Shown: in pieces, positions 26,601 to 59,300 of the stretch
Position numbering within the stretch: position 1 is the first letter of the stretch
Layout: each line of letters starts with the position of its first letter
NCBI RefSeq assembly: GCF_020740795.1
Contig: NC_067305.1
Span: 3,224,001-3,288,000, forward strand
Source: Apus apus
Lineage: Eukaryota; Chordata; Aves; Apodiformes; Apodidae
DNA length: 64,000 bases
Direction: 5' to 3'
Notes under the pieces: model-generated
Database searches by the model: none
What the model was told of the DNA's origin: nothing
What the model saw: the letters and a program-made list of their open reading frames with translations, nothing else
Made by a program: the position numbers and the translations under genes

Positions 26601-29600
26601 GACAGGAGAGGTCCAGGGACTCACCTGGGTTGGGCTGGAGGTACTCTATTGTTCTGGTCAATACTTCTGTAACTGCCTTGCTGGTCAGGTCCACTTTCTG
26701 TAGGAAAGACAAGATGATCAAGTTCAGCTCAAGGCTTTGCCAAGGTCACAGAGGAGTCAGCTGGGCTATTTTAGTGGTTTCTCTTGTTCTCTGCTCACCT
26801 TTTCCATTTCCTTGAAGTCATCGTCGAGTTTGGTCCCTTCAGCTCCCCCGACCTTCTCACTGACCAGCTGCAGAGAAAGAAGGAGGAGGAATCAGGCAGG
26901 GCAGCTGAGTGCTTAAAGCTCCTTAGTCCTCATGTAGTGAGGCCCTGGGGCAGAAACGGATGAGGGGTGGTCCTGACAGCACCAGCAAGGGGCTGGAGGT
27001 GGCAGAACAGCCCAAAGCACCTCACAAAGACACCGTCTCACCACAAATCCAAGTGTCTCCAACCCTCTGGCTCAGTCAGGATATTCCTCACCCAACACAG
27101 ATCCCTCAGTCCCACCACAGGGCCCAACTCCAACACCTGCTGGCAAAAACAAGCAGCAGAATTGTCTCTTGACTCCATTTTGAGCCAAGACTTCAGTTCC
27201 AGACACGGCAAAACGCAAATAAACAGGGAATGAACCCACTCTGCTCCCAGCACAAGGACAGGGGCTAGGGTGAGCAAGGCCCTCTGAAAACCCTAAACCA
27301 TCATTCCTCCTTGAGGGAGAGGCTGGAGAAGTTTGGGATCTGGAGCAGGTGGGGTTGGATTCTTTGTCAGTGGAGCACAGAGACCTGCAGTAAAGTTTCC
27401 AAATCCATTTCTCAAAGCGTCTCTGAGGTCTGTTCAAAAAGTAGTGAGAAGGTGAGATGCTTAAAAGGCTTGGGCTGTTGGTGTGAAGGGCTTATCAGCC
27501 TTCTCCTAAAGATCACTTGGTCTAAGAAAAGCCCCTTGCTCCCTAAACCTCATCATCCAACCAGCCGAGCTGAAGGAGTAATACATGACTCAATAAATCC
27601 ACCCCAAAGTGTCTTTCCCTGCAGCCCAAATGGAGAGGAACATCTTCCCAGCTCCATGCTGGTGTGGAGTGGCAGGACCAGGATGCAGGACGTGAGGATC
27701 AGTCAAAATTCATTCTTATCTTGCCCCAGACTGATCTGAATGGGCAGAAAATCACATCCAGGGACATCAAAAGTGGTCAAGGAAACAGGAGCTGACTCCC
27801 AAGCACTTGATCCCTGCTGTGGGACACTGCCAGGATTTCTCCTGTTTGGAGTCAAAACTCCAGCTCTGGAGGAACAATACAGACTTGTTTACTTCAACAT
27901 CAAATATTTGATGTTATCAAGTCTTTCTTCCTCTGGAAGCCTCCTGCTCCCAGGGGGATTCAAACTGGTTCCTTACTTTTTGGAGGAAAGTGGGGAGGGG
28001 AGGAATCCAGTTCCCAAGCAGGACATTACAACGAACAAGATCTTCAGTGTTTCAGCAAAATCTCCTGGTTCAGACCCCAAAAGAGGAAGGAGAAACAAAT
28101 AATGCTCATAGTCAAAGATCCTCAGGAGCTGTGGTGTGGAGGAGCAATTATCACTGCTCAAAGCCCAGCCACAGCTGACCAGCTTCTTGTATCTTGGTAG
28201 GGGAACAGCTGGAACTGCCAAGGCAGTTGCTGGGATTGTGGAGCAGAGGATGGGGAGCACAGAGAGCTCTTGAAATGGACCACTGGGCATGGAGCTGGGC
28301 AGGCTCATCACCACAGGGCCAAAAGGAGGGCTCAACAAGGCTGGCAAAGCAGGGAAGAGCTTGGTTGCATCCAGGGAAGCCTTTGGTTTTCCTCTTTGGG
28401 AGGAAGAACAGCTCAACAGAGGACCCGAGATGCCAAAGAGGGATTCCTGGAGCTCACCCCCTTCACATACACACACTGGGGGGAAGGAAAGGGTTGATGC
28501 TCTCCTGGGGATTTAACTGTCCTTCTTAACCCTCAGATAAGGTCTTCACAGGTTCACAGGGAGAACAGGTCAGGGCAACCCAGACCCACATACAAAAAAG
28601 GTTTGAATGGGTATAATCACCCCACAGGTCCCTGCAGACAGGCAAGTGATCCCAGCTTGAGTTCTTTGCCCCCAGCATAAGGACACGGAGCTTCTGGAGA
28701 GAGTCCAGAGGAGGCCATGGAGATGATCCAAGGGCTGGAGCAGCTCTGCTCTGAAGACAGGCTGGGAGAGTTGGGGTGTTCAGCCTGGAGAAGAGAAGGC
28801 TCCAGGGAGACCTTAGAGCACCTTCCAGTGCCTGAAGGGGCTCCAGGAAAGCTGGGGAGGGGCTTGGGACAAGGGCAGGGAGGGAGAGGACAAGGGGGGA
28901 TGGTTTTAAACTGGAAGAGGGGAGATGAACATTAGACATTTTGAAGAAACCCTTCCCTGTGTGGTTGGTGGTCCTTCACACCCAAACCAGTCTGGGATTT
29001 GATGATTCTAAATCCTCAACCAAATTCAGTGGCCCAGATACTCTCCTAGGTTCATGCTGAAGCACATCAGCTGGTTGGTGTGAAAGCTGAGAAGCAGGCT
29101 GAGCTCTCTGGTTTCTTCAGCCTCTCAGCCCTGCCAGGACAGGACACACACACTAAAAGGTTAAACCTGAAGCAAACCCTGCCCCAGCTCCCAGAAGGGA
29201 GCAGAAACCCTGGGCTGCACCACCACAGCAGCCAAAGCCAAGTGTTTCCTAGAGCAAATATTAACACAGGGAGATGGAATTGAGTGTCATGGCCCAGTGA
29301 GATCAGAAACTGGTTCCAAGCAGGACAGCTGCTGAGCTGGCATCCCACCCAGGCCAGGTTGCAGCAGACAGGGCACACGAGGTCCAACAGAGGAGCCAGG
29401 AACCCATCCCTTGCTCCTCATCATCTTTAATGAAAGGGATACTGGCAGTTGCAATATGCCCCAGATAACTCCAGCCTGAGATCAGAGCAGGGAGGTGTGT
29501 TTAATTCGAGGCTGGTGCCAGGCTCCTGAGCAGGGTTAGGGCTCAGTGACCATCACCAGGAGCATGGCATCCAGCCTGCTTCATCCTGCAGGAGAGCTAA

Positions 29601-32600
29601 TCCAGAGGGATGGGAGACAGGAGAGCTAATCCAGAGGGATGGGAGACAGGAGAGCTAACCCAGAGGGATGGGAGACAGGAGAGCTAATCCAGAGGGATGG
29701 GAGACAGGAGAGCTAATCCAGAGGGATGGGAGACAGGAGAGCTAATCCAGAGGGATGGGAGACAGGAGAGCTAATCCAGAGGGATGGGAGACAGGAGAGC
29801 TAATCCAGAGGGATGGGAGACAGGAGAGCTAATCCAGAGGGATGGGAGACAGGAGAGCTAATCCAGAGGGATGGGAGACAGGAGAGCTAATCCAGAGGGA
29901 TGGGAGACAGGAGAGCTAATCCAGAGGGATGGGAGACAGGAGAGCTAATCCAGAGGGATGGGAGACAGGAGAGCTAATCCAGAGGGATGGGAGACAGGAG
30001 AGCTAATCCAGAGGGATGGGAGACAGGAGAGCTAATCCAGAGGGATGGGAGACAGGCACTTCTGTCCACCCCAGAGCAGTTCCCAGACTGCTTTGTGGTT
30101 TCTACAGCCTCAAATTAAAGAGCACTGACCCACGAGGGTTCCCATCCCTCCCCTTTTGCAGGGAACTGGAGCCATCCCCATTTCCCCTCACTGTTCCCAA
30201 CCCACCGGAGGGGCTGCACGTGGTGGAAACTCTTTGGAAATGAAAGAGCTGTTGTTTGAAGGCCGTGCTGGGGCAGGAGGTCGTCGGCAGGGAGAGGCAG
30301 GGTTGGTATGTGGAGAGAGGGGGAAGGAGGGCAGGATGAAGAGGGCTTCTCTCTCACAGCTGGGAGAGAGAGAAATGTCTCTGGGGGATGAGGGAGGGCT
30401 GTGAATTTAGACACAAAACCCACAAGGGCTCTCGTCAAAACCCACAATTCCTTCAGCCCCATCAGCTCCAGGACAACCCAGGGCAAATAAAGAAACCTGA
30501 GCAACCACCCCTTGCAAGGTCAGGCTGGCAAACTGCACGTGAAGCAGGTGGATCAGCCAGGTCTGTCTACACCACCACTGGAGCCCACACAGGTCCCAGA
30601 GATCTGGAGAAGGACCCAACCTGCTCCCACCCCAAAGCTGAGTTTCCCTCATTGCTGGCTGCAGTGTCACCCCCATTGAAGTTAGGGTGTTCAGCCTGGA
30701 GAAGAGAAGGCTCCAGGGAGACCTGAGAGCACCTTCCAGTGCCTGAAGGGGCTCCAGAAAAGCTGGGGAGGGACTTGGGACAAGGGCAGGGAGGGAGAGG
30801 ACAAGGGGGGATGGATGAAAACTGGCAGAGGGAGATTGAGGTGAGACATGAGGAGGGAATTCTGGAGTGTGAGGGTGGTGAGAGCCTGGCCCAGGTTGCC
30901 CAGGGAAGCTGTGGCTGCCCCATCCCTGGCAGTGTTGAAGGGCAGGTTGGATGGGGCTTGGAGCAGCCTGGGCTGGTGGGAGGTGTCCCTGCCCATGCAG
31001 GGGGGTTGGGACTGGATGATCTTGAAGGTCCCTTCCAACCTAAACCGATCTGTGAGACTGTGATTAGCATTCCTGCCAGGAGCAGAGGGCTGTGCAGGAG
31101 GTGTGCCCAGCCAGGATCTGCCTCCAGGAGCACATCAAGATGGGGAGAGGTTGTGTGAGCAGCAGATGAGGCTGTTCCTCAGGGCAGCCCCAGCTCAGAG
31201 CAATGGGATGGGCTGTTCTGCCTTGTTGTGTGGCTCCCAGGAGCTGCTGTTGGCAGAGTGTGAGAGATGCAGAGAAGAAAAAAAAGAAGAAAGGAGATTT
31301 TTGTACAGCATCATCAGCACAACTCAGGATAAAGTGAGAGGGAAGATGCCATCAGCCAAACCTCCCCCACCAAGGAGTGCTGGACACCTGGAAACACAGA
31401 GGAGAGCAGGTCTGCAGCACTTGCCACGCTGCAGGTTCTTTCCCCTGCCCAACCCAGGGCACAAATCAGTGTCATTTTCTGCTAATAAACACCTTTCCCA
31501 TGGGACTTGACACACCTGATTTTGACATCCTGCTCTTTAGCCTTCAGACACTTTCAGATGGGACATGATCTCTGACTCCCACAGCCTCAAACAGTCAAAA
31601 CACACCAAGAGAAACACAAAACCTGTTGTTTTTAAACTGGCTTTTTCCACAGCCAACACTCAGCCCTGTTTATAACACATCAAACACACCCCACCCTTGC
31701 ATCCAAACCACTTGCCCACAGCAGAATGAAAACCTTCTCCCTCCTGATGCTGAAGTATCAAAGCCTTCCTCTTCCTCCCCAACTCTCAACAGAAAGTTCC
31801 CTTCATGAACTAATAAAAAAAAAACACCCTACAGATGAGCAAACATACAAGCAGCTCTACCCTGGCTGCCTTCATCAGGGAAGAGCGAGTCCAGTGGAAA
31901 AAAACAGCCCATAATTTTTAAAGGTGCTGTAAATATCTTTGTTTTACATTGACAAAAGGGCTTGAGGACAAGAAGAGAGCCTGCTAGGGACATGTCAAAG
32001 CAATCAAAGCAAAGCAGGCTAACTGGGATCACTGGTGCGCAGTTCCAGCCATGTCTGGTAGAACAGATCATAGACTCAGACTGGTTTGGGTTGGAAGGGA
32101 ACTTAAAGATCATCCAGTCCCATCCCCTGCATGGGCAGGGACACCTTCCACCAGCCCAGGCTGCTCCAAGCCCCATCCAACCTGCCCTTCAACACTGCCA
32201 GGGATGGGGCAGCCACAGCTTCCCTGGGCAACCTGGGCCAGGCTCTCCCCACCCTCACACTCCAGAATTCCCTCCTCATGTCTCACCTCAATCTCCCTCT
32301 GCCAGTTTTCATCCATCCCCCCTTGTCCTCTCCCTCCCTGCCCTTGTCCCAGGTCCCTCCCCAGCTTTCCTGGAGCCCCTGCAGGCACTGGAAGCTGCTC
32401 TAAGGTCTCCCTGGAGCCTTCTCTTCTCCAGACTCAACACCCCAACTCTCCCAGCCTGGCTCCAGAGCAGAGCTGCTCCAGCCCTGGATCATCTCCTTGG
32501 CCTCCTCTGGACTCTCCCCAGGAGCTCCGTGTCCTTCTTGTGTTGGGAGCTCTAGAACTTGACACAGATGAGTGGGAAGCTGCCTAAAACCTTGTTAGAG

Positions 32601-47297: not shown

Positions 47298-47346
47298 ATG
47301 GAGTGCAGAGACAAAGCAGCTGGTCCTCCCAGGAAGCTCGTCCAAG
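47298..47346 (+). CDS. CHAF1A: CHAF1A coding exon 1
   Basis: The exon encodes MECRDKAAGPPRKLVQ plus one base. The ATG follows the acceptor by two bases and matches the internal start MDCKDRP of the human protein. The donor is AAG/GTAAAG. Confidence 0.93.
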
Positions 47347-50300
47347 GTAAAGCTGGGGGGGTGTCAGGCCTGGTTCTGTGGAACTTCTTGCCTTTTCAGT
47401 CCTAAACTGGCCTCGTTTCAGTTAAAATGCCTTGATATCTGATCCCCCCCCCAGCTCCCATCACTTGTATAATGTGACTAAACCAATAAAATGCTGTTTC
47501 AGCTCGACTGCCCTTCAAACGTTTGCATCCAGTGCCAAAGGAAAAGCTGGAGGCTGATTCCCAAGTCAAAAAAGTGAAGAGTTCCCAGAGTGGTTTTGAT
47601 CCCACTAAGGATTCCTCCCTGGATGCATCCTCTGCATCCCTGGACAACCTGGAGAACAACTGTCAGCTGGATTCAGATGGGAATTTTTCACCAAAACTCC
47701 TTAATGGGAAAGGTCCATTAGACCATTTTATCCAGAAAACCACAGAAGTGAATCCAAATGAACCTGTGATTGTCATTGACCTGACAGAGGGCACGAGCCA
47801 CAGACTGAGTGATGGTGTGGACCATGTTCATGTTGATCCAAAAGCTTCTTCATCCCTAGCAGTAAGTAATGGCACGTTAGGAAAAGAGAGAAACCAGCTG
47901 AGCTGCCTGAATTCCAGTCAGAGAAGCCAAAGGGGTGATCCCCTGGAGACTGATGGACCTTGTGAAGCTGCAGGGGATGAAGAGGAGTTGGTTGGTGGGA
48001 TCCAGTCACGTTCTGGGATAGCAGAGTGTGAGGATGTGGAAGAGACCAAGGGAAAGCAGAGCAAACTGAAGGACATCATCTTTGAGGGGAAGATGCCCGT
48101 GGTGCTCCTGGAGGACATCATGACAGCAAAGTCACCCCAGGTGGTTTCTCTGGATGGAGCTGTCACCTCAGGAAGTGAGTCCATGGAATCATCTCATGAA
48201 GGAGACTCTGGACTTACCAGCTCCTCCCTGAGCCCTCACTCTGTGAGCTCCCCTGAGGCTCAGGCTGCTGCAGAACCCAAGAGGAACACCAGTCCCCTGG
48301 CTGCCTCCACACCCCTCAGGAAGGTTGGTCTCCTTTTTTTTAAGCTTTTTGTTTTTAAAGCTGCTGCTTTGCAGGCAGGTTGTGCTGTTCCCTGCCCTTG
48401 GAGTGAAAAGGGTGTTCACAAACATTGTGAGGAGTGTGTGGAACAGGTGTGGAATTCTGGAGTGTGAGGGTGGTGAGAGCCTGGCCCAGGTTGCCCAGGG
48501 AAGCTGTGGCTGCCCCATCCCTGGCAGTGTTGAAGGGCAGGTTGGATGGGGCTTGGAGCAGCCTGGGCTGGTGGGAGGTGTCCCTGCCCATGCAGGGGCT
48601 TGGATCTAGATGATCTTGAAGGTCCCTTCACACCCAAACCAGTCTGTTTTTCCCTCCTGAAGTGTTTTCCCTCCTGAAGTTCATGCCTTTGGCCTTAGCA
48701 TTTTTGTCACTTGGATGAGGACAGTGACCAAAAGCAGTTTTGTCCCTCAGGAGATGTTTCACAGCCTCTGTTCTCTCCTTGATGAAGCTGCTCTAAGTGC
48801 TGCCAGACACTTGGTGTCAGTCAGTGCAGACCCTATTCCTGCTGGGAACTGCTGTGTTTTCTCCAGCTGAAGCTGCAGCCCAGCAGGGGAAGGTGCAAGA
48901 TCTGTAGGTGGGGATGGAGGACAAACCTCTTGTCTCTCTGGGGAGAAACCCCCACATGTCCAGCACTCCTGGGGTGCTGTTGGGCAGTCAAAGGTGGAGG
49001 GAACACCTCAAAAACCAGCTCATTAGCTCTGGGTTGGATCTTGGTTCCAGTTGAGCACCTCAGCTCCAGCAGGAGACCCCAAAACATTGTGGGGTTTGAT
49101 GCTGTGTTGAAGGAGAAGCTTCTAATGACAACAGTGCAGGTGGCTGAGACCTTCATGTAGCTCAAACACCTCTTCACCCTCAAGCATTTTGAGGAGGACA
49201 CGAGAAAGGGGGGGGGTGTTTCTGGGGGGGCACAGCCCTGGTGAACATGCCTGGGTGCTGTAGCTAAGCCCCACCTACAGTTTAAGCTGGATTCTTTGAG
49301 CAATCTGTTCATTTTGCTTAATTATTAGAGGGCATCACAAGGAAGGTGGTGATGGTGGCTCCATGCTGTGCTGCCAGGAGGGGGGAGGGTTGAGTGTGTG
49401 GCTGAGGGTGAGGGGATGGAGGAGCTGGAATCCATCCTGCTTGTGCCACCTTGAGCCTTTTAAGAGAGATTTTCACCAACTGTCCCCTCCAGAATTCCAG
49501 GGGCTGTCCCCCAAGTGAGGAGAAACCTCCCTGGCCTGGAGGAGGGATGGATTAGAATTCCAGGAGCTGTCCCCCAAGTGAGGAGAAACCTCCCTTGCCT
49601 GGAGGAGGGATGGATTAGAATTCCAGGGACTGTCCCCCAAGTGAGGAGAAACCTCCTTGGCCTGGAGGAGGGATGGATGAGTTAGCTTGGAGCTCACAAC
49701 CTGCCATGGCTTCCTTTTCTTCCTGCTTAGCAAGGAAAATGATCCATTTCCCCCACTGTTAAAACTCACAGTGGTTCATCTCTCAAATAAATAACATCAC
49801 TTCAAGCAGGCATGAAGTGTTTCAGGCCAGACAAACCAAGCCCTTGAGTCCTGAGTTCAGATGATAACACCAAGTGCCTGGTTTCCTGAGGCTGGAACAG
49901 CTCAGATGCTTCACCTGGGACCTCTGTGGTTCTCTGTCCTAGCATGTTGGTCTCCCTAGGTGGAAACACCTCTGATAAACTCCACCTTCCCAGCTGAAAG
50001 AACCTTTGATTTTTGTGCCAGATAAAAGCAGCAGCTCCTGGTGCAACTTGGTGCTGTGTCAACTGAAATGTGAGCCCAGGAGATGAAGCAGTTGGGCTGG
50101 GTGAGTCTGTTCATCACACACCTGGGACTTGCTGCTGCCCAGGGCAGGAGGAGGAAGAAGATACAAGTCACACTGTGCTGAATTATTGACAAATGAAGCC
50201 TTTCACAAGTCTGTAAACATTTTTTTTTTGACATCAAATACCTTTTCACCTATAAATAACAGCTTGAAGAGAAATGAGAAGGGTGACCTGTTGGGTTGGT

Positions 50301-53300
50301 GTGCTGGTACTAGTGGAAGGGCTAAGTGGCTCTTCTGGTTACAGAAAGAAGGAATGGTGTTAAAATATGGAGAACAGTCCTGGTGTTGATATTGCATAAT
50401 GATATTGCATAAATATCATGGCATGATTAGTAGTGGATGCAAAAAAAACAAACCCCCAAACAAATCAAGTTAAACTCAAAGGAAGCGACTTTGCTGTAGA
50501 TAGAGCATAGAGGCATGGAATGGTTTGGGTTGGAAGGGACCTTCAAGATAACCAAGATCCAACCCCCCTGCATGGGCAGGGACACCTCCCACCAGCCCAG
50601 GCTGCTCCAAGCCCCATCCAACCTGCCCTTCAACACTGCCAGGGATGGGGCAGCCACAGCTTCCCTGGGCAACCTGGGCCAGGCTCTCACCACCCTCACA
50701 CTCCAGAATTCCCTCCTCATGTCTCACCTCAATCTCCCTCTGCCAGTTTTCATCCATCCTCCCTTGTCCTCTCCCTCCCTGCCCTTGTCCCAAGCCCCTC
50801 CCCAGCTTTCCTGGAGCCCCTTCAGGCCCTGGAAGGTTCTCTAAGGTCTCCCTGGAGCCTTCTCTTCTCCAGGCTGAACACCCCAACTCTCCCAGCCTGG
50901 CTCCAGAGCAGAGCTGCTCCAGCCCTTGGATCATCTCTGTGGCCTCCTCTGGACTCTCCCCAGGAGCTCCATGTCCTTCCTGTGTTGGGGGCTCCAGAAC
51001 TGCCCACACTTGTGTTCTGCTGTGCTCTGAGGATTTGGAGCAGCTCCTGTTTGTTTTTCTGCACACAATGTTCCCCTGGAAATGACACTTCAGATCTGAG
51101 CAGGCTGGAGGGATTTGTTATGCAAAACTGTAACATGAGGACTTAATGTAAACTGAAGTATTTAGATGTGTTCAGGCTTCATGTAAATCAGAGAGATTAG
51201 ATGTTCTTGATCCATGTCTTCATGCTCTGTTCTGGGAGAATTGTGCTGAATGTTCATAGAACCATGGATTGGTTTGGGTTGGAAGGGACCTTCAAGATCA
51301 TCTAGACCCAACCCCCTGCATGGGCAGGGACACCTCCCACCAGCCCAGGCTGCTCCAAGCCCCATCCAACCTGCCCTTCAACACTGCCAGGGATGGGGCA
51401 GCCACAGCTTCCCTGGGCAGCCTGGGCCAGGCTCTCACCCCCCTCACACTAATCCTGATCTGCAGGAGAAATGTTGATGGAATTGAGGCACAGCTCTTGA
51501 GAGTCCTAGTGCCTTGTGGAGAGGGAACCAGGTGGCTCTCTGAATCCTGCCTTTTGTCATTCTAGGTGGCTCAGGAGGTCCTCAGACTTGTCTTTTGTCA
51601 TTCCAGGTGGCTCAGGAGGTCCTCAGACTTGTCTTTTGTCATTCCAGGTGGCTCAGGAGGTCCTCAAATTTGTCTTTTGTCATTCCAGGTGGCTCAGGAG
51701 GTCCTCAAACTTGTCTTTTGTCATTCCAGGTGGCTCAGGAGGTCCTCAAATTTGTCTTTTGTCATTCCAGGTGGCTCAGGAGGTCCTCAAACTTGTCTTT
51801 TGTCATTCCAGGTGGCTCAGGAGGTCCTCAAATTTGTCTTTTGTCATTCCAGGTGGCTCAGGAGGTCCTCAAACTTGTCTTTTGTCATTCCAGGTGGCTC
51901 AGGAGGTCCTCAAACTTGTCTTTTGTCATTCCAGGTGTCTCAGAAGTGCCACAGAAGCTCAGCTGAGAAGGAGAAGCTTCGGTTGCAAAGAGTAAGGGCT
52001 TTTCCACTGCCACAGACACTCCCCCTGCTGTGCTTTCCCACTGAGCAGTGAGCAAAGCCCCTTTACATTCCATCTTAGTCCACTTGGAACATCTCCCTTC
52101 CTCCTTTTCCTCACTGCTGAATATGGAAGAACCTTCATCCATGCACTCAAAGCCCTTGGCTGGTTCCCAAGCTCCTTAACATGTAGCTCCTGGAGTGTGG
52201 GTCCCTGCACTGCAGCTCAGTGCACTTTGGGATGAGATTAAGAACCTGGAAATGTTGGTGGCTGCTTCTCTAAGTGATTTTTTGGGAATCCTTTGTCTTT
52301 CCCAGCCCCTTCCTCAGCAGGTAGGTGCCTCCTGCTAAGGGCACAGAGTCAAGTGCCACCTTCAGAAGCTTTAAGGCTGGTTTCTTCATCTCTCACTCTT
52401 CCCTCTTTTAAGCCACAAAGAATAGGGGCTGTTACTTTATTTTCTTGTGCACTTATGGGGTCCCCCCTCATTTTCTTCCCCACTTAGGGGGTCCCCCCTC
52501 ATTTTCTTCCCCACTTAGGGGGTCCCCACTCAGTTTTCTTTAGCATTTAAGGGATCTCCACTTGTTTTCTTCCCCACTTAGGGGGTCCCCCCTCATTTTC
52601 TTCCCCACTTAGGGGGTCCCCACTCAGTTTTCTTTAGCATTTAAGGGATCTCCACTTGTTTTCTTCCCCACTTAGGGGGTCCCCCCTCATTTTCTTCCCC
52701 ACTTAGGGGGTCCCCACTCAGTTTTCCTTAGCATTTAAGGGATCTCCACTTGTTTTCTTCTGCATTTAGGGGGTCCCCCTCATTTTCTTCCCCACTTAGG
52801 GGGTCCCCACTCAGTTTTCTTTAGCATTTAAGGGATCTCCACTTGTTTTCTTCCCCACTTAGGGGGTCCCCCCTCATTTTCTTCCCCACTTAGGGGGTCC
52901 CCACTCAGTTTTCTTTAGCATTTAAGGGATCTCCACTTGTTTTCTTCCCCACTTAGGGGGTCCCCACTCAGTTTTCTTTAGCATTCAAGGGATCTCCACT
53001 TGTTTTCTTCTGCATTTAGGGGGACCCCCTCATTTTCTTCCTCACTTAGGGGGTCCCCACTCAGTTTTCTTTACCATTTAAGGGATCTCCACTTGTTTTC
53101 TTCTGCATTTAGGGGTCTTCATTTCTTTCCTCCTACATTTATGACTTGCAGAAAGAACTGTGGGAAATTACTGCTAAAAATGCCCAAGCCCTGATCTCTC
53201 CTTGCTCCAACATAACTTGTCAGCAAACTCAGTCCCATACCAGCTCTGTGGTGGGATGATTTTGCTGTCTGTCCTGCTTTCAGGCATAAAATGCTAAAAA

Positions 53301-56300
53301 TAAAAGAGGGTGATGGATCACATGGAATTTTTGAGCCCCCAGTGCTGTAGGGAATGAGCTTTCCCTGCTGGAAAACTGGCTCTTGTTGGGCATTGGAGTC
53401 TTGTGATTCCTAATAACCAATTTCTAAAGCTGATAATGGGGGCTGTTGTGTTTTATTTGAGCTAAATGTGCTCCAAGCCTGTTCCCAAGATGCTTTTTAC
53501 ACTTCAGAAACCCAGTCTGTTGTTTTCCTCCCCTTCTAAATGGGTGTTAAAAATACCATGAAGGTGAGGGAGGGTTGAGAACAGAACCTTGAGCAGACTC
53601 AAAACTAAACAGACCTGTTCACTTCACACCATTTCCCAGCCTTCCCAGTGGATTTGCTCTGATTACCATGACTCAGTGTTGACAAAGTTGGTTGTTGTTT
53701 TTTTAAAATTGGCAGAATTTGGGGGGGGTTTTGGTTCCTCCTGCAGTGATTTGGATGTTGTGACTCTGCTCAGCGAGTCCCGACGTTGCCAAGGCAAGAA
53801 ATGTGACATAAATAAAACTCAACTGCAGACACACAGAGAGGGTGTTTGTGTGTGTCTGAGCACAGATGTCCCCTGGTTTCCTGCTGAAGTCACCAATGCC
53901 CTGGGAAGCTGGAATTGTTGGCATTTTTCAGGAAGATTTCCACATTCTCCTTGATGTGGCAGTAAAGCCCTCGTGAGAAATTCAGCTGCCTTGGGAGGGA
54001 AATACTGTGAAGAGCAACATTTTCAGGCTCATCTCCTCACCTTGATCTCACAGTCCCCTTTAAATGAGCTTTAGGGTGTCTGGGGTTGTCTGATCAACAC
54101 AAGTGACAGTGATTTTTGTGAGCTCCAGGTCCTACAAGCAGCTGCACAGCCAGAGTTTGGAGACTTATTCCCTGATCCAGTGAAAAACATGGTCAGGGAA
54201 AAGAAAAGCTTGGTGGGTTTAATATAAAATCAGATCAAACTATTCAAACCAGCCCTAATTGATGATGATCCCAGTTTCACATCAAGTGATTAGGGTTGGA
54301 AGAGACCTTTGGAGATCATCTAGTTCCAGGTTCACCATATCCTAAAGTGAAAGTGTTTGGGAAACAATCTGAAATCCTCATAAACATTTAAAAATCATGT
54401 TAAAAATTCCCATCTCGTTTTAGTTGGTAATGGGGGTGACTCAAAGGATCAAGGAAAGAGAATTCCAAGCTTCCCTTGATGCTGAGGGGGTGGAAACAGG
54501 AGGAAAAGAACAATTAATGCAGCACCTGGTGCAAGGTCTGAGGGCACCGTGTTAAATAACCACTTGTCCTGTGAGAGTAGGAATCCACTCTGGATTCCTG
54601 GAGCTGGAGATTCAGCTGGAGAATGAAATTCTTACTTTAGTCAGGGGTTGTGTTTGGGTTTTTTTTTTTCTGGCAGCAGCTTTTGCTGGGCCCAAAGAGA
54701 CACTTGTTTCTGTCCCAGGACCAGGAACGTGCAGACAAGCTGCAGAAGCTGCAGGCGGAGCGAGAGGAAAAGGGGAGGCTGAAGGAAGAGGCAAAAGCTG
54801 CAAAAGAAAGAGCCAAGGAGGAGGCCAAGAAGAAGAAGGAAGAAGAGAAAGAGTTGAAAGAGAAAGAAAGGAGAGAAAAGAGAGAGAAGGAAGAGAAGGA
54901 GAAAGCTGAGAAGCTGAGAGTCAAGGAGGAGAAACGCAAGGAGAGGCAGGAAGCTCTGGAGTAAGTGGCTTCATTTCCACAGGTCCTGGGGATTAAGATG
55001 TGAACACCTTTCCATGCCCCCTGGACTTTCAGAGGCCACACTGGTCAAACAGCACGTGTCACTTTTTTCACAGGGGCTATTTTAAATGTATTTTAATGCC
55101 AGCCCCTCATCCCAGCAGGACATTCTGTCTCCAGATGACCTGGGCTTCTCATTGGATGTGGCTGATGGGAGCTGTTCTGCTCCACTGGGTTTTCATGGCC
55201 AGTCTTGTTGTGCTTTTGCAATTTCTTGGCACTGGTGCCTTGTCTGGTGAGGAAGTTCCCTGATCTTGAGGGAAATTGGAAGCAACCTGGCTAATTGGTG
55301 GCTAAAACAGGTCAATATTTGCTCAGGAAGGAATGCAGAGAGTTCTCAGTGGGTTTAACCAAGTACAGCCCTTGGCTGAGTTAATAGATGATCTTCTTTC
55401 CTAGCATGATGGGTTCTTAGGGTCTGGGGCTTCTCACCTCTTCCTCAGTGCAAATAATCACTTGATGGGCTTGTGACAACATCAATTTTGTATTAAAGGG
55501 CAAAACTCGAGGAGAAGAGGAAGAAAGAAGAGGAGAAACGGTTAAGGGAGGAGGAAAAGGTAAATGTCATCTCTGGCTTGTCTCTAAATTCTTCTGCTAT
55601 GGTGAAAGGGTGTTCATGGGCTCCCTGGAACCCTGCTGAGGGCTCCTGAAGCTCCTGTGGTTCTCCAGGCAGTGTCCCCTGCCTCAAGAGCTCCTGAAGC
55701 TCCTGTGGTTCTCCAGGCAGTGTCCCCTGCCTCAAGAGCTCCTGAAGCTCCTGTGGTTCTCCAGGCAGTGTCCCCTGCCTCAAGAGCTCCTGAAGCTCCT
55801 GTGGTTCTCCAGGCAGTGTCTCCTGCCTCAAGAGCTCCTGAAGCTCCTGTGGTTCTCCAGGCAGTGTCCCCTGCCTCAAGAGCTCCTGAAGCTCCTGTGG
55901 TTCTCCAGGCAGTGTCTCCTGCCTTAAGAGCTCCTGAAGCTCCTGTGGTTCTCCAGGCAGTGTCCCCTGCCTCAAGAGCTCCTGAAGCTCCTGTGGTTCT
56001 CCAGGCAGTGTCTCCTGCCTCAAGAGCTCCTGAAGCTCCTGTGGTTCTCCAGGCAGTGTCCCCTGCCTCAAGAGCTCCTGAAGCTCCTGTGGTTCTCCAG
56101 GCAGTGTCTCCTGCCTCAAGAGCTCCTGAAGCTCCTGTGGTTCTCCAGGCAGTGTCTCCTGCCTCAAGAGCTCCTGAAGCTCCTGTGGTTCTCCAGGCAG
56201 TGTCCCCTGCCTCAAGAGCTTTTGAAGCTCCTGTGGTTCTCCAGGCAGTGTCCCCTGCCTCAAGAGCTCCTGAAGCTCCTGTGGTTCTCCAGGCAGTGTC

Positions 56301-59300
56301 CCCTGCCTCAAGAGCTCCTGAAGCTCCTGTGGTTCTCCAGGCAGTGTCCCCTGCCTCAAGAGCTCCTGAAGCTCCTGTGGTTCTCCAGGCAATGTGTCCT
56401 GCCTCAAGAGCTCCTGAAGCTCCTGTGGTTCTCCAGGCAGTGTCTCCTGCCTCAAGAGCTCCTGAAGCTCCTGTGGTTCTCCAGGCAGTGTCCCCTGCCT
56501 CAAGAGCTCCTGAAGCTCCTGTGGTTCTCCAGGCAATGTGTCCTGCCTCAAGAGCTCCTGAAGCTCCTGTGGTTCTCCAGGCAGTGTCTCCTGCCTCAAG
56601 AGCTCCTGAAGCTCCTGTGGTTCTCCAGGCAGTGTCTCCTGCCTCAAGAGCTCCTGAAGCTCCTGTGGTTCTCCAGGCAGTGTCTCCTGCCTCAAGAGCT
56701 CCTGAAGCTCCTGTGCTTCTCCAGGCAGTGTCCCCTGCCTTGGTGACACTTGGGGAGTGAGCTCATCCATTTGGGATGCAGCCAATCCACCCTGACCAGG
56801 TGGTGCTGCTCCACCAATCCTGTCATGCAGGTTTCTTGTCTTTCATGCAAGTTGGTGCTTTGTTTTTACCTGTTCAAACTCTTTTCTGTCTTGGTTTCTC
56901 AATGCCCACGAGTGAACCTTCTGCTTTGTCTTAGAGACACTGGAATCCACTGAGCTGTGGGAGGGGAGACAATTATTATTGAGCTGGGAAATGACTCAAC
57001 TTGGCTTTCTACCTTACTAGGTTTGAACTTGGGTCATGCATGAAGGAATGATGAGGCTTGGTCCTGTCTTGGTGTTTATAATTTGCCTTTTCCTTCTGAT
57101 TTCAGCGAATTAATGCCCAGAAAGCAGAAATCACCAGGTTCTTCCAGAAACCAAAGACTCCACAAGCCCCAAAGGTGAGGTGTTGCTGTTCCTGTGGTTT
57201 CTTGGTCTTCCATTAATCATCTTTTGACAAAGACACTTCATTTCCTTCTGCTCCATCCCATAGAGCTGAGATGGCCAGAGCATTAATATCCCTTCCTAAT
57301 TTTAAAAGCAGTTGCTTCAGTAAAAAAAAAATCTCACCTGTGTTTTCTGCTGCCCTTGGCTGTAAAGACTCAGATTCCCTTGAGGAAGATCTCTTGGGAG
57401 TCTCAGACAGGAATGGCTTCACCACAATCTTCACTCAAAGGTTTGGTGTTGAGGTTTGTGTGGCTGGAATGTCCTGGTGCTGCACGTTCTCTGGTGCTTC
57501 AGCCCCTGATGATCCTCACTTGGCATTTCAGATTCTTGCTGGTTCTTGTGGAAAGTTTCCTCCTTTTGAAATCAAGGAGAACATGGTCTTAGCTCCTCTC
57601 TGCCGTGTTGCCCTGGATCCAGACTTGTTGGAGCAGCTGGATAAGCTCCTGTGTGGCCAGAATAGTGAAGATTCCTTCTTGAGGGATTTAAAGTGTCGGA
57701 AACCACGGAAAACTGGACCCACTTTTGTCAGTAGCAGCACTGACATAGTGAACAGGTTAGTCTGTGTTTTGGAGGGGGGTTTCTTCACCTTTTTTTTGTG
57801 TAGAATCAACTGCAGAATGGTTTTGAGATCCTCTTGGTCTGATGTTGGAGGTGGTGGAAAGATGAAGCTCTTCTTGGAATGCTCGTTTTGTAGGAGAATT
57901 GTTTCTACGGGGAGCAGGATTTTGTGATGTAGAATTAGAGAATCCCAGGCTGGTTTGGGTGGGAAGGGACCTCCAAGATCATCCAGTCCCAACCCCCCTG
58001 CATGGGCAGAGACACCTCCCACCAGCCCAGGCTGCTCCAAACCCCATCCAACCTGCCCTTCAACACTGCCAGGGATGGGGCAGCCACAGCTTCCCTGGGC
58101 AACCTTGGACAGGCTCTCACCACCCTCACAAGGAAGAGCTTCTTCTTCATGTCCAAGTCTAGATTTCTTTCACAGAATCATGGAATTATTTGGGTTGGAA
58201 GGGACCTTATAGATCATCTAGTTCCAACCCCCTTGCATGGGCAGGGACACCTCCCACCAGCCCAGGTATTAGCAGCATCAAGTTGGGTTAACCATTCCAT
58301 ATGGTGCTTCTCAAGCCCTTCTCCAGAGGAAACACAAGCTTCAGGCAGCTGCCACTGGACACTACTGGTCCTAAAGGGTGTTTGTCTTTGATAATTTAAA
58401 GAAGTTAACACATGGGTGGCCAAAGGAGAGGTGAGCTGAGGAGGGAGGTGGCTTGTCTGGAGCTTCATGGTCTTGCAGGAGAATTGGGAGAGTCTGTTGC
58501 AATGAACTCAGGCCCTGGGTTGGTTTGTGGCTTTCTCTGAGATGTTTTCCCAAGCAGCAGGGGAGTGTTCTGGGAGGACTGAAGATGATCTCTCCTTTCC
58601 ACAGTGATGTGGTGGTCGTGGATAACTGCAAACCAGATGCTGTTCCAGAAAGAGGGAAGTTTGGTCGGATGAAACTCCTGCAGTTCTGTGAGAATCACCG
58701 TCCTGCCTATTGGGGCACGTGGAACAAGAAAACCTCTGTGATCCATCCCAGGAACCCGTGGTCAAAGGACAGTGTAAGGAAGTCCCTGGTAGTGCAGTTG
58801 GGTTGTGTGCTTTCTGTATGCTCCTGAATTCATGGAGTCATGGAATGGTTTGGGTGGGAAGGGACCTGAAAGATCATCTAGATCCAACCCCCCTGCATGG
58901 GCAGGGACACCTCCCACCAGCCCAGGTTGCTCCAAGCCCCATCCAACCTGCCCTTCAACACTGCCAGGGATGGGGCAGCCACAGCTTCCCTGGGCAACCT
59001 GGGCCAGGCTCTCCCCACCCTCACACTCCAAAATTCCCTCCTCATGTCTCACCTCAATCTCCCTCTGCCAGTTTTCATCCATCCCCCCTTGTCCTCTCCC
59101 TCCCTGCCCTTGTCCCAAGTCCCTCCCCAGCTTTCCTGGAGCCCCTTCAGGCACTGGAAGCTGCTCTAAGGTCTCCCTGGAGCCTTCTCTTCTCCAGGCT
59201 GAACACCCCAACTCTCCCAGCCTGTCTCTGTAGGAGAGAACTGAACACACAGTTGGCCACGTTCACTTGTTTTCTAGGATTTCTAATCCCCTTTTGCATG

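Follow-up and report, generated by a model that had tools for sequence, protein, structure and literature searches.

Introduction

A minisatellite in IFI6 (6-16) is said to provide multiple splice donors, an observation attributed to Turri et al. in 1995. Use of these repeats in mRNA has been reported, with two downstream repeat units serving as donors (PMC4526556). The CHAF1A array described here resembles this case in presenting tandem repeat units as alternative splice sites, but its members are candidate acceptors, read from sequence, rather than donors.

In human ABCA7, a VNTR in intron 18 has a 25-bp unit, the first two bases of which are the exon 18 donor (PMC5954066). According to the accessible parts of that report, retention of one unit causes a frameshift and accounts for 2 ± 1% of measured transcripts independently of VNTR length, transcripts with premature stops increase with cycloheximide, skipping of the next exon increases with VNTR length, and in one brain region the alternative transcripts combined exceeded the canonical one in 90% of cases (PMC5954066). 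The same parts give one-unit retention, at about 2%, as the only usage of array sites (PMC5954066). Both loci carry a minisatellite that includes the authentic splice site together with further copies of it, in both the unit is not a multiple of three, and in both the next copy shifts the frame. They differ in that the ABCA7 array consists of donors, shown to vary in length and associated with altered splicing, whereas the CHAF1A array consists of acceptors and is known from the sequence of one assembly.

GC-rich bird genes have been described with introns built from tandem repeats, so that, as in CHAF1A, repeats lie between exons; the parts of that work consulted make no mention of units that carry the acceptor itself, as ours do (PMC6792250). 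NAGNAG tandem acceptors also place more than one acceptor AG at an intron end (PMC3250501), but their two isoforms differ by three bases, whereas successive AGs in CHAF1A are separated by 41 nt, mostly with a branch candidate and a pyrimidine tract for each. Among titles and the beginnings of abstracts, mostly open-access, we recognised no acceptor-bearing minisatellite at a coding exon, a search that counts as weak evidence; the accessible parts of PMC7536079, PMC12776774, PMC8912139 and PMC3039753 likewise describe no such acceptor array.

A conserved CHAF1A exon and its acceptor

The array lies in the window (the whole 64,000-nucleotide stretch of Apus apus DNA analysed, in whose coordinates all positions are given) among the following features, all on the plus strand.

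47298-47346, plus: CHAF1A exon, placed by the joined open frame
47503-48323, plus: CHAF1A coding exon 5' of the array, by translation and alignment to 8iqf; its last codon is complete (TPLRK); donor AAG/GTTGGT
51528-51547, plus: candidate degenerate eleventh copy (CCAGGTGGCTC then TCTGAATCC), by local alignment and an exact 11-mer
51551-51565, plus: opening acceptor of the array, in frame (CTTTTGTCATTCTAG), with branch-point candidate CTGAA 22 nt 5'
51566-51934, plus: nine 41-bp units, each GTGGCTCAGGAGGTCCTCARAYTTGTCTTTTGTCATTCCAG with a terminal acceptor AG, by TRF and repeat-family search
51917-51934, plus: authentic acceptor of the 57-bp exon (TGTCTTTTGTCATTCCAG), by gapless spliced-protein alignment to 8iqf CHAF1A
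51935-51991, plus: 57-bp CHAF1A exon VSQKCHRSSAEKEKLRLQR, by alignment to 8iqf; donor AGA/GTAAGG
54719-54960, plus: next CHAF1A exon, KER-rich, by translation
55499-55559, plus: CHAF1A exon, placed by the joined open frame
57106-57174, plus: CHAF1A exon, placed by the joined open frame

Joining all six exons, from 47298-47346 to 57106-57174, gives one open frame on translation. The product of the first four matches the CHAF1A chain of 8iqf, which we take to be human, at 1.5e-78 in protein alignment, and matches the Pfam families CAF1-p150_N (4.8e-35) and CAF1A_acidic (4.5e-7). Across both ends of the 57-bp exon the alignment is gapless (TPLRK/VSQKCHRSSAEKEKLRLQR/DQER here versus TPLRR/ITKKFVKGSTEKNKLRLQR/DQER in 8iqf), with gaps elsewhere, and the 8iqf protein likewise has 19 residues at this place, indicating that the exon has its ancestral length and that 51934 is the old acceptor. 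The coincidence of the array end with the conserved exon points to the same site as ancestral. The acceptor junction falls between the residues aligned to R320 and I321 of the 8iqf chain, about 10 residues N-terminal of the start of the predicted KER helix, which spans Thr330-Phe448 (PMC9570017). These results bear out a first-pass annotation of this DNA that had called the gene CHAF1A, had placed the authentic acceptor of the 57-bp exon at 51934/51935 just before the KER domain, and had the preceding exon finishing on a whole codon.

Judged against the donor consensus, the donor of exon 47503-48323 (48321-48329, AAG/GTTGGT) fits poorly at +3 T and +4 G, which may be relevant to competition among acceptors. 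The host contig, at 6.55 Mb, would fit a bird microchromosome when taken together with the genome size of 1.10 Gb and with repeats that we take to be avian CR1.

Structure of the array

TRF describes 51551-51943 as a repeat of period 41 with 9.6 copies, 97% matches, 0% indels and a score of 737, and a repeat-family search returns a single family with nine start-to-start steps, each of exactly 41, in agreement with the unit length and spacing first annotated. The AGs end at 51565 + 41k for k = 0 to 9, the last at 51934. Only two of the 41 columns vary among the nine full units: column 20 is G in units 1-2 and A in units 3-9, while column 22 is C or T, alternating through units 3-8 with an 82-bp step.

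The array had initially been described as ten near-identical copies of one intron-exon junction. The register of ten stands, but the exon side of the tenth copy has diverged, with identity to the unit complete only to exon +3 and 15 of 23 nt shared after the AG; near-identity holds for acceptors 2-10, which are the same from -19 to +3, but not for the first, at 51565, which reads TCTAG instead of CCAG.

A 27-mer of the unit, searched with up to three mismatches, has 10 forward and 0 reverse matches in the 1.10 Gb assembly (110 contigs), all of them in the array, and the reversed-pattern control has 0 matches. A mobile or dispersed repeat was rejected on the basis of this single genomic place. 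At the upstream edge, CCAGGTGGCTC at 51528-51538 tentatively suggests a degenerate eleventh copy, its AG ending at 51531, 34 bp 5' of the first acceptor, and lacking a pyrimidine tract; four of 500 shuffles reach its score, as do 29 of the 633 other 81-nt segments compared from the window, and by itself it falls below significance.

Acceptor signals of the ten sites

The units span branch-point candidate, pyrimidine tract and AG, so that nearly every copy is, on paper, a complete acceptor. All 22 letters from -19 to +3 are identical in acceptors 2-10 (9/10), and any score that reads only these positions is therefore equal for the nine. Branch candidates were assigned by the AG-exclusion-zone rule (PMC1431707): eight of the ten acceptors have a TNA candidate 22 nt 5' of the AG with an AG-free zone of 27-32 nt, and those at 51606 and 51647, with candidate CTCAG and an AG-free zone of 19 nt, may be weaker than the others. 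The locus shares with multi-splice-site VNTRs or minisatellites both an arrangement of tandem short units containing the authentic splice site and the presence of complete sites in the units (the -19 to +3 letters in 9/10, a branch candidate in 8/10).

We rest the main argument on this identity of letters, the numerical scores coming from an approximate acceptor matrix. On that approximate matrix the array acceptors score 11.06 and the first 9.22; the four other CHAF1A acceptors tested score 2.64, 10.67, 4.45 and 7.98, all below 11.06. Of 5295 plus-strand AGs scored in the window with the same approximate matrix, 41 reach 11.06, the nine array sites included.

Comparing cores, branch candidates and fold, we found no sequence feature that favours 51934 over the upstream acceptors. 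The latter are closer to the donor and would give exons of 98-426 nt, versus 57 nt. Pyrimidine words in 51548-51934 comprise nine TCTTT and ten CTTTT, which we take to be PTB words.

Other explanations of the repeated AGs were considered. All 100 shuffles fold more stably than the RNA spanning 51520-51991 (z = +3.09), which rules out concealment of the array by RNA structure. The spacing of 41 nt rather than 3 nt rules out a NAGNAG tandem acceptor. In a recursive (ratchet) splice site the acceptor abuts a good donor (CAG/GTRAGT); here a weak donor, AG/GTGGCT, heads all nine full units, with +4 and +5 off the donor consensus, and this class too was rejected.

Reading frames and possible products

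By translation, acceptors 51565, 51688, 51811 and 51934 are in frame and stop-free through the exon ending at 57174, adding 123, 82, 41 and 0 residues, respectively. The other six of the ten are out of frame and all lead to premature stops: from 51606, 51729 and 51852 the stop falls inside the 57-bp exon, 28 nt short of its end, and from 51647, 51770 and 51893 it lies 61 nt into exon 54719-54960. All six stops are more than 100 nt 5' of the 54960/55499 junction, and by the established rule of nonsense-mediated decay on the distance from stop to junction, decay would be expected for the six frameshifted transcripts. Skipping of the 57-bp exon preserves the frame.

The 41-bp cycle contains no stop triplet in any forward phase. 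The same is true of 18.7% of the 41-mers in 48330-54700 (a background that leaves out the CHAF1A array and the array at 52.4-53.15 kb), and the open frame is therefore no evidence of coding selection; selection for frame was rejected on this ground. The frame arithmetic of the first-pass annotation (+123, +82, +41 and +0 in frame, six frameshifts) proved correct, and the open frame it had reported from 51566 into the exon is confirmed by translation but is one fact rather than three and, against the 18.7% background, weak evidence. The 123 extra residues have no Pfam match at E 0.001, so a known protein domain in the insert was also rejected. Each translated 41-residue repeat contains cysteines and a tryptophan.

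Origin and age

The array is probably a young minisatellite in which the final 41 nt of a CHAF1A intron were copied head to tail. Two variable columns in 41, the C/T column alternating, are what recent slippage or unequal exchange would be expected to leave, and the alternation in units 3-8 suggests growth by 82-bp dimers in part of the array. Growth would have kept the register of a short, imperfect copy of the exon start: past GTG, 11 of 17 positions agree between the exon side of the unit and the true exon start. This level of agreement is reached at 0.18% of the other positions in the window and at none of 93 other AGGTG sites (the window without 51500-51959 serving as background), and its rarity supports an in-register origin. 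With one genome compared, either of two routes could account for the pattern, an old duplication of the junction with later amplification of the distal copy, or an imperfect repeat of the exon start, lying 41 nt upstream of it, that seeded slippage. Where the unit has GAG the exon has AAG, and the corresponding lysine is also present in the 8iqf chain, a weak hint that the exon retains the older state at this codon.

Each unit contains one AGGT and each joint forms another, the arrangement of intron gain by AGGT-bearing duplication, in which GT and AG lie one unit apart and the new intron falls between copies. Vertebrate introns are normally longer than one 41-nt unit.

Other arrays in the region and the genome

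In 264 kb of the contig (200 kb upstream plus the window), a census of minisatellites with period 20-120, at least 150 bp and at least 3.5 copies returned 20, covering 11.8 kb. The CHAF1A array has the only consensus unit of the 20 that reaches 11.06 on either strand, the next reaching 10.7 (approximate matrix). Two of the other 19 lie inside CHAF1A introns, and copy-number mutation therefore suits the local setting. Repeats inside the gene, besides the acceptor array, are as follows.

49491-49678: three-copy array, by TRF
52439-53115 (52471-53115 in the census): 31/94-bp higher-order minisatellite with repeated TTTTCTTCCCCACTTAG/G acceptor-like words (8.9), in the intron after the 57-bp exon
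55642-56740: 48-bp minisatellite of 22.9 copies (97% matches), 82 bp past exon 55499-55559 in the following CHAF1A intron

The unit of the array at 55642-56740 contains an acceptor-like word, CTGTGGTTCTCCAG/GCAG (8.2, approximate matrix). Elsewhere in the window, a 29-bp minisatellite at 29589-30056 has 16.1 copies with 99% matches.

A plain-letter pattern of three TTCCAGGT at steps of 26-48 nt has at least 18 matches at no fewer than seven genomic places, seven of the 18 being in the CHAF1A array, and the reversed-pattern control gives at least 0 forward and at least three reverse matches. One locus was viewed from each of the six other places. That at C1:205.26 Mb (L030) has units of about 41/42 nt and 13 TTCCAG/GT sites scoring 9.3-11.6 on the approximate matrix, some of its acceptor-like sites directly preceding GTGAGT. 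With 13 equally strong sites at L030, the CHAF1A array is not the sole acceptor-bearing array in the genome. L037 has five TTCCAG/GT-type sites (0.0-9.3) and L038 eleven (1.8-3.8), again on the approximate matrix, and the minus-strand matches L033, L046 and L047 show no motif as read.

Two further arrays were seen. L019:2588-3349 is a 48-bp array of CCTGCTCCCTGCAG/GT units (10.7, approximate matrix) that stops about 65 nt before a likely exon acceptor, the acceptor itself lying outside the array; the AG of that acceptor, read by eye, ends at L019:3414, and the frame beyond looks glycine/proline-rich. The array at L023:7702-7945 (9.0) reaches no recognisable exon junction in the stretch read. 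As a minisatellite the CHAF1A array is unremarkable; what sets it apart is the inclusion of a conserved coding acceptor.

Discussion

The first-pass annotation had offered a protein-length switch, a decoy array and a neutral expansion as readings of the array, and the evidence leans towards the last. We consider it reasonably probable that the array is a neutral expansion, with splicing mostly at 51934 and minor leakage to transcripts bound for decay. A minisatellite would have arisen by chance head-to-tail copying of the last 41 intron nucleotides, most CHAF1A transcripts would still be spliced to the old, exon-adjacent 51934, and a small share would go to the upstream acceptor copies. Splicing to 51893 or any other out-of-frame copy would lead to a premature stop and decay, whereas splicing to 51811, 51688 or 51565 would occasionally give proteins lengthened by 41, 82 or 123 residues ahead of the KER helix. 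This reading is favoured by the lack of any mark of frame selection (41 is not a multiple of three and six of the ten acceptors are out of frame, leaving no frame signal), by the minisatellite-rich stretch, and by the roughly 2% use of the neighbouring site in ABCA7, the closest precedent with measurements. It is by analogy with ABCA7 that we would assign most transcripts to 51934 and a low leakage to the upstream sites, but ABCA7 can be read in either direction: the 2% was measured at steady state, in a class of transcripts that increases under translation block, and other mis-splicing next to the array is large there, so that exon skipping may matter in CHAF1A as well. Donors and acceptors are recognised by different steps, which limits the analogy with a donor array.

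On sequence alone, the upstream sites would be able to compete with 51934. Were several or all ten near-equal acceptors used in appreciable, perhaps tissue-dependent shares, the locus would yield CHAF1A with 0, 41, 82 or 123 residues added ahead of the DNA-binding KER helix, plus decay transcripts, and copy number would set both the protein series and the share lost to decay. Equal acceptor cores at nine of ten sites, branch candidates at eight, accessible RNA (less stable than all 100 shuffles) and the open frames of the in-frame members speak for such usage. We nevertheless think it unlikely, given the single-unit retention of about 2% in ABCA7 (PMC5954066), the lack of a Pfam match in the insert, the cysteines and tryptophan that each 41-residue repeat would bring, and the disruption of the frame by six of ten choices. 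The upstream acceptors and pyrimidine tracts may instead act as decoys that divert U2AF or PTB-like factors, so that CHAF1A output falls through frameshift and decay or through omission of the 57-bp exon with the frame kept. Dividing cells are expected to need CHAF1A, and a strong decoy should be selected against; we rate this lower still, even though the six frameshifting acceptors with early stops, the nine TCTTT and ten CTTTT words in 51548-51934 (if they are indeed PTB words), the frame-neutrality of exon skipping and the growth of next-exon skipping with VNTR length in ABCA7 (PMC5954066) are all consistent with it. An assembly artefact, with a true array shorter or longer than the one assembled, is very improbable: ordered variants inside a repeat of only about 0.4 kb, and its single location among the 110 contigs of the 1.10 Gb assembly, argue against it.

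Differences in site strength usually obscure what governs the choice among acceptors. In this array the core from -19 to +3 is shared by nine evenly spaced acceptors whose main differences are their distance and flanking sequence, and junction counts at these nine would reveal directly whether position decides. This makes the array an unusually clean natural test of choice among equal splice sites, and any variation in copy number would provide a natural dose series within the species. Splicing almost wholly at 51934 would show that equal competitors can be overruled by exon context in a core histone chaperone gene; if instead the graded series of isoforms is real, a minisatellite would have converted a single acceptor into a set of ten nearly equal sites.
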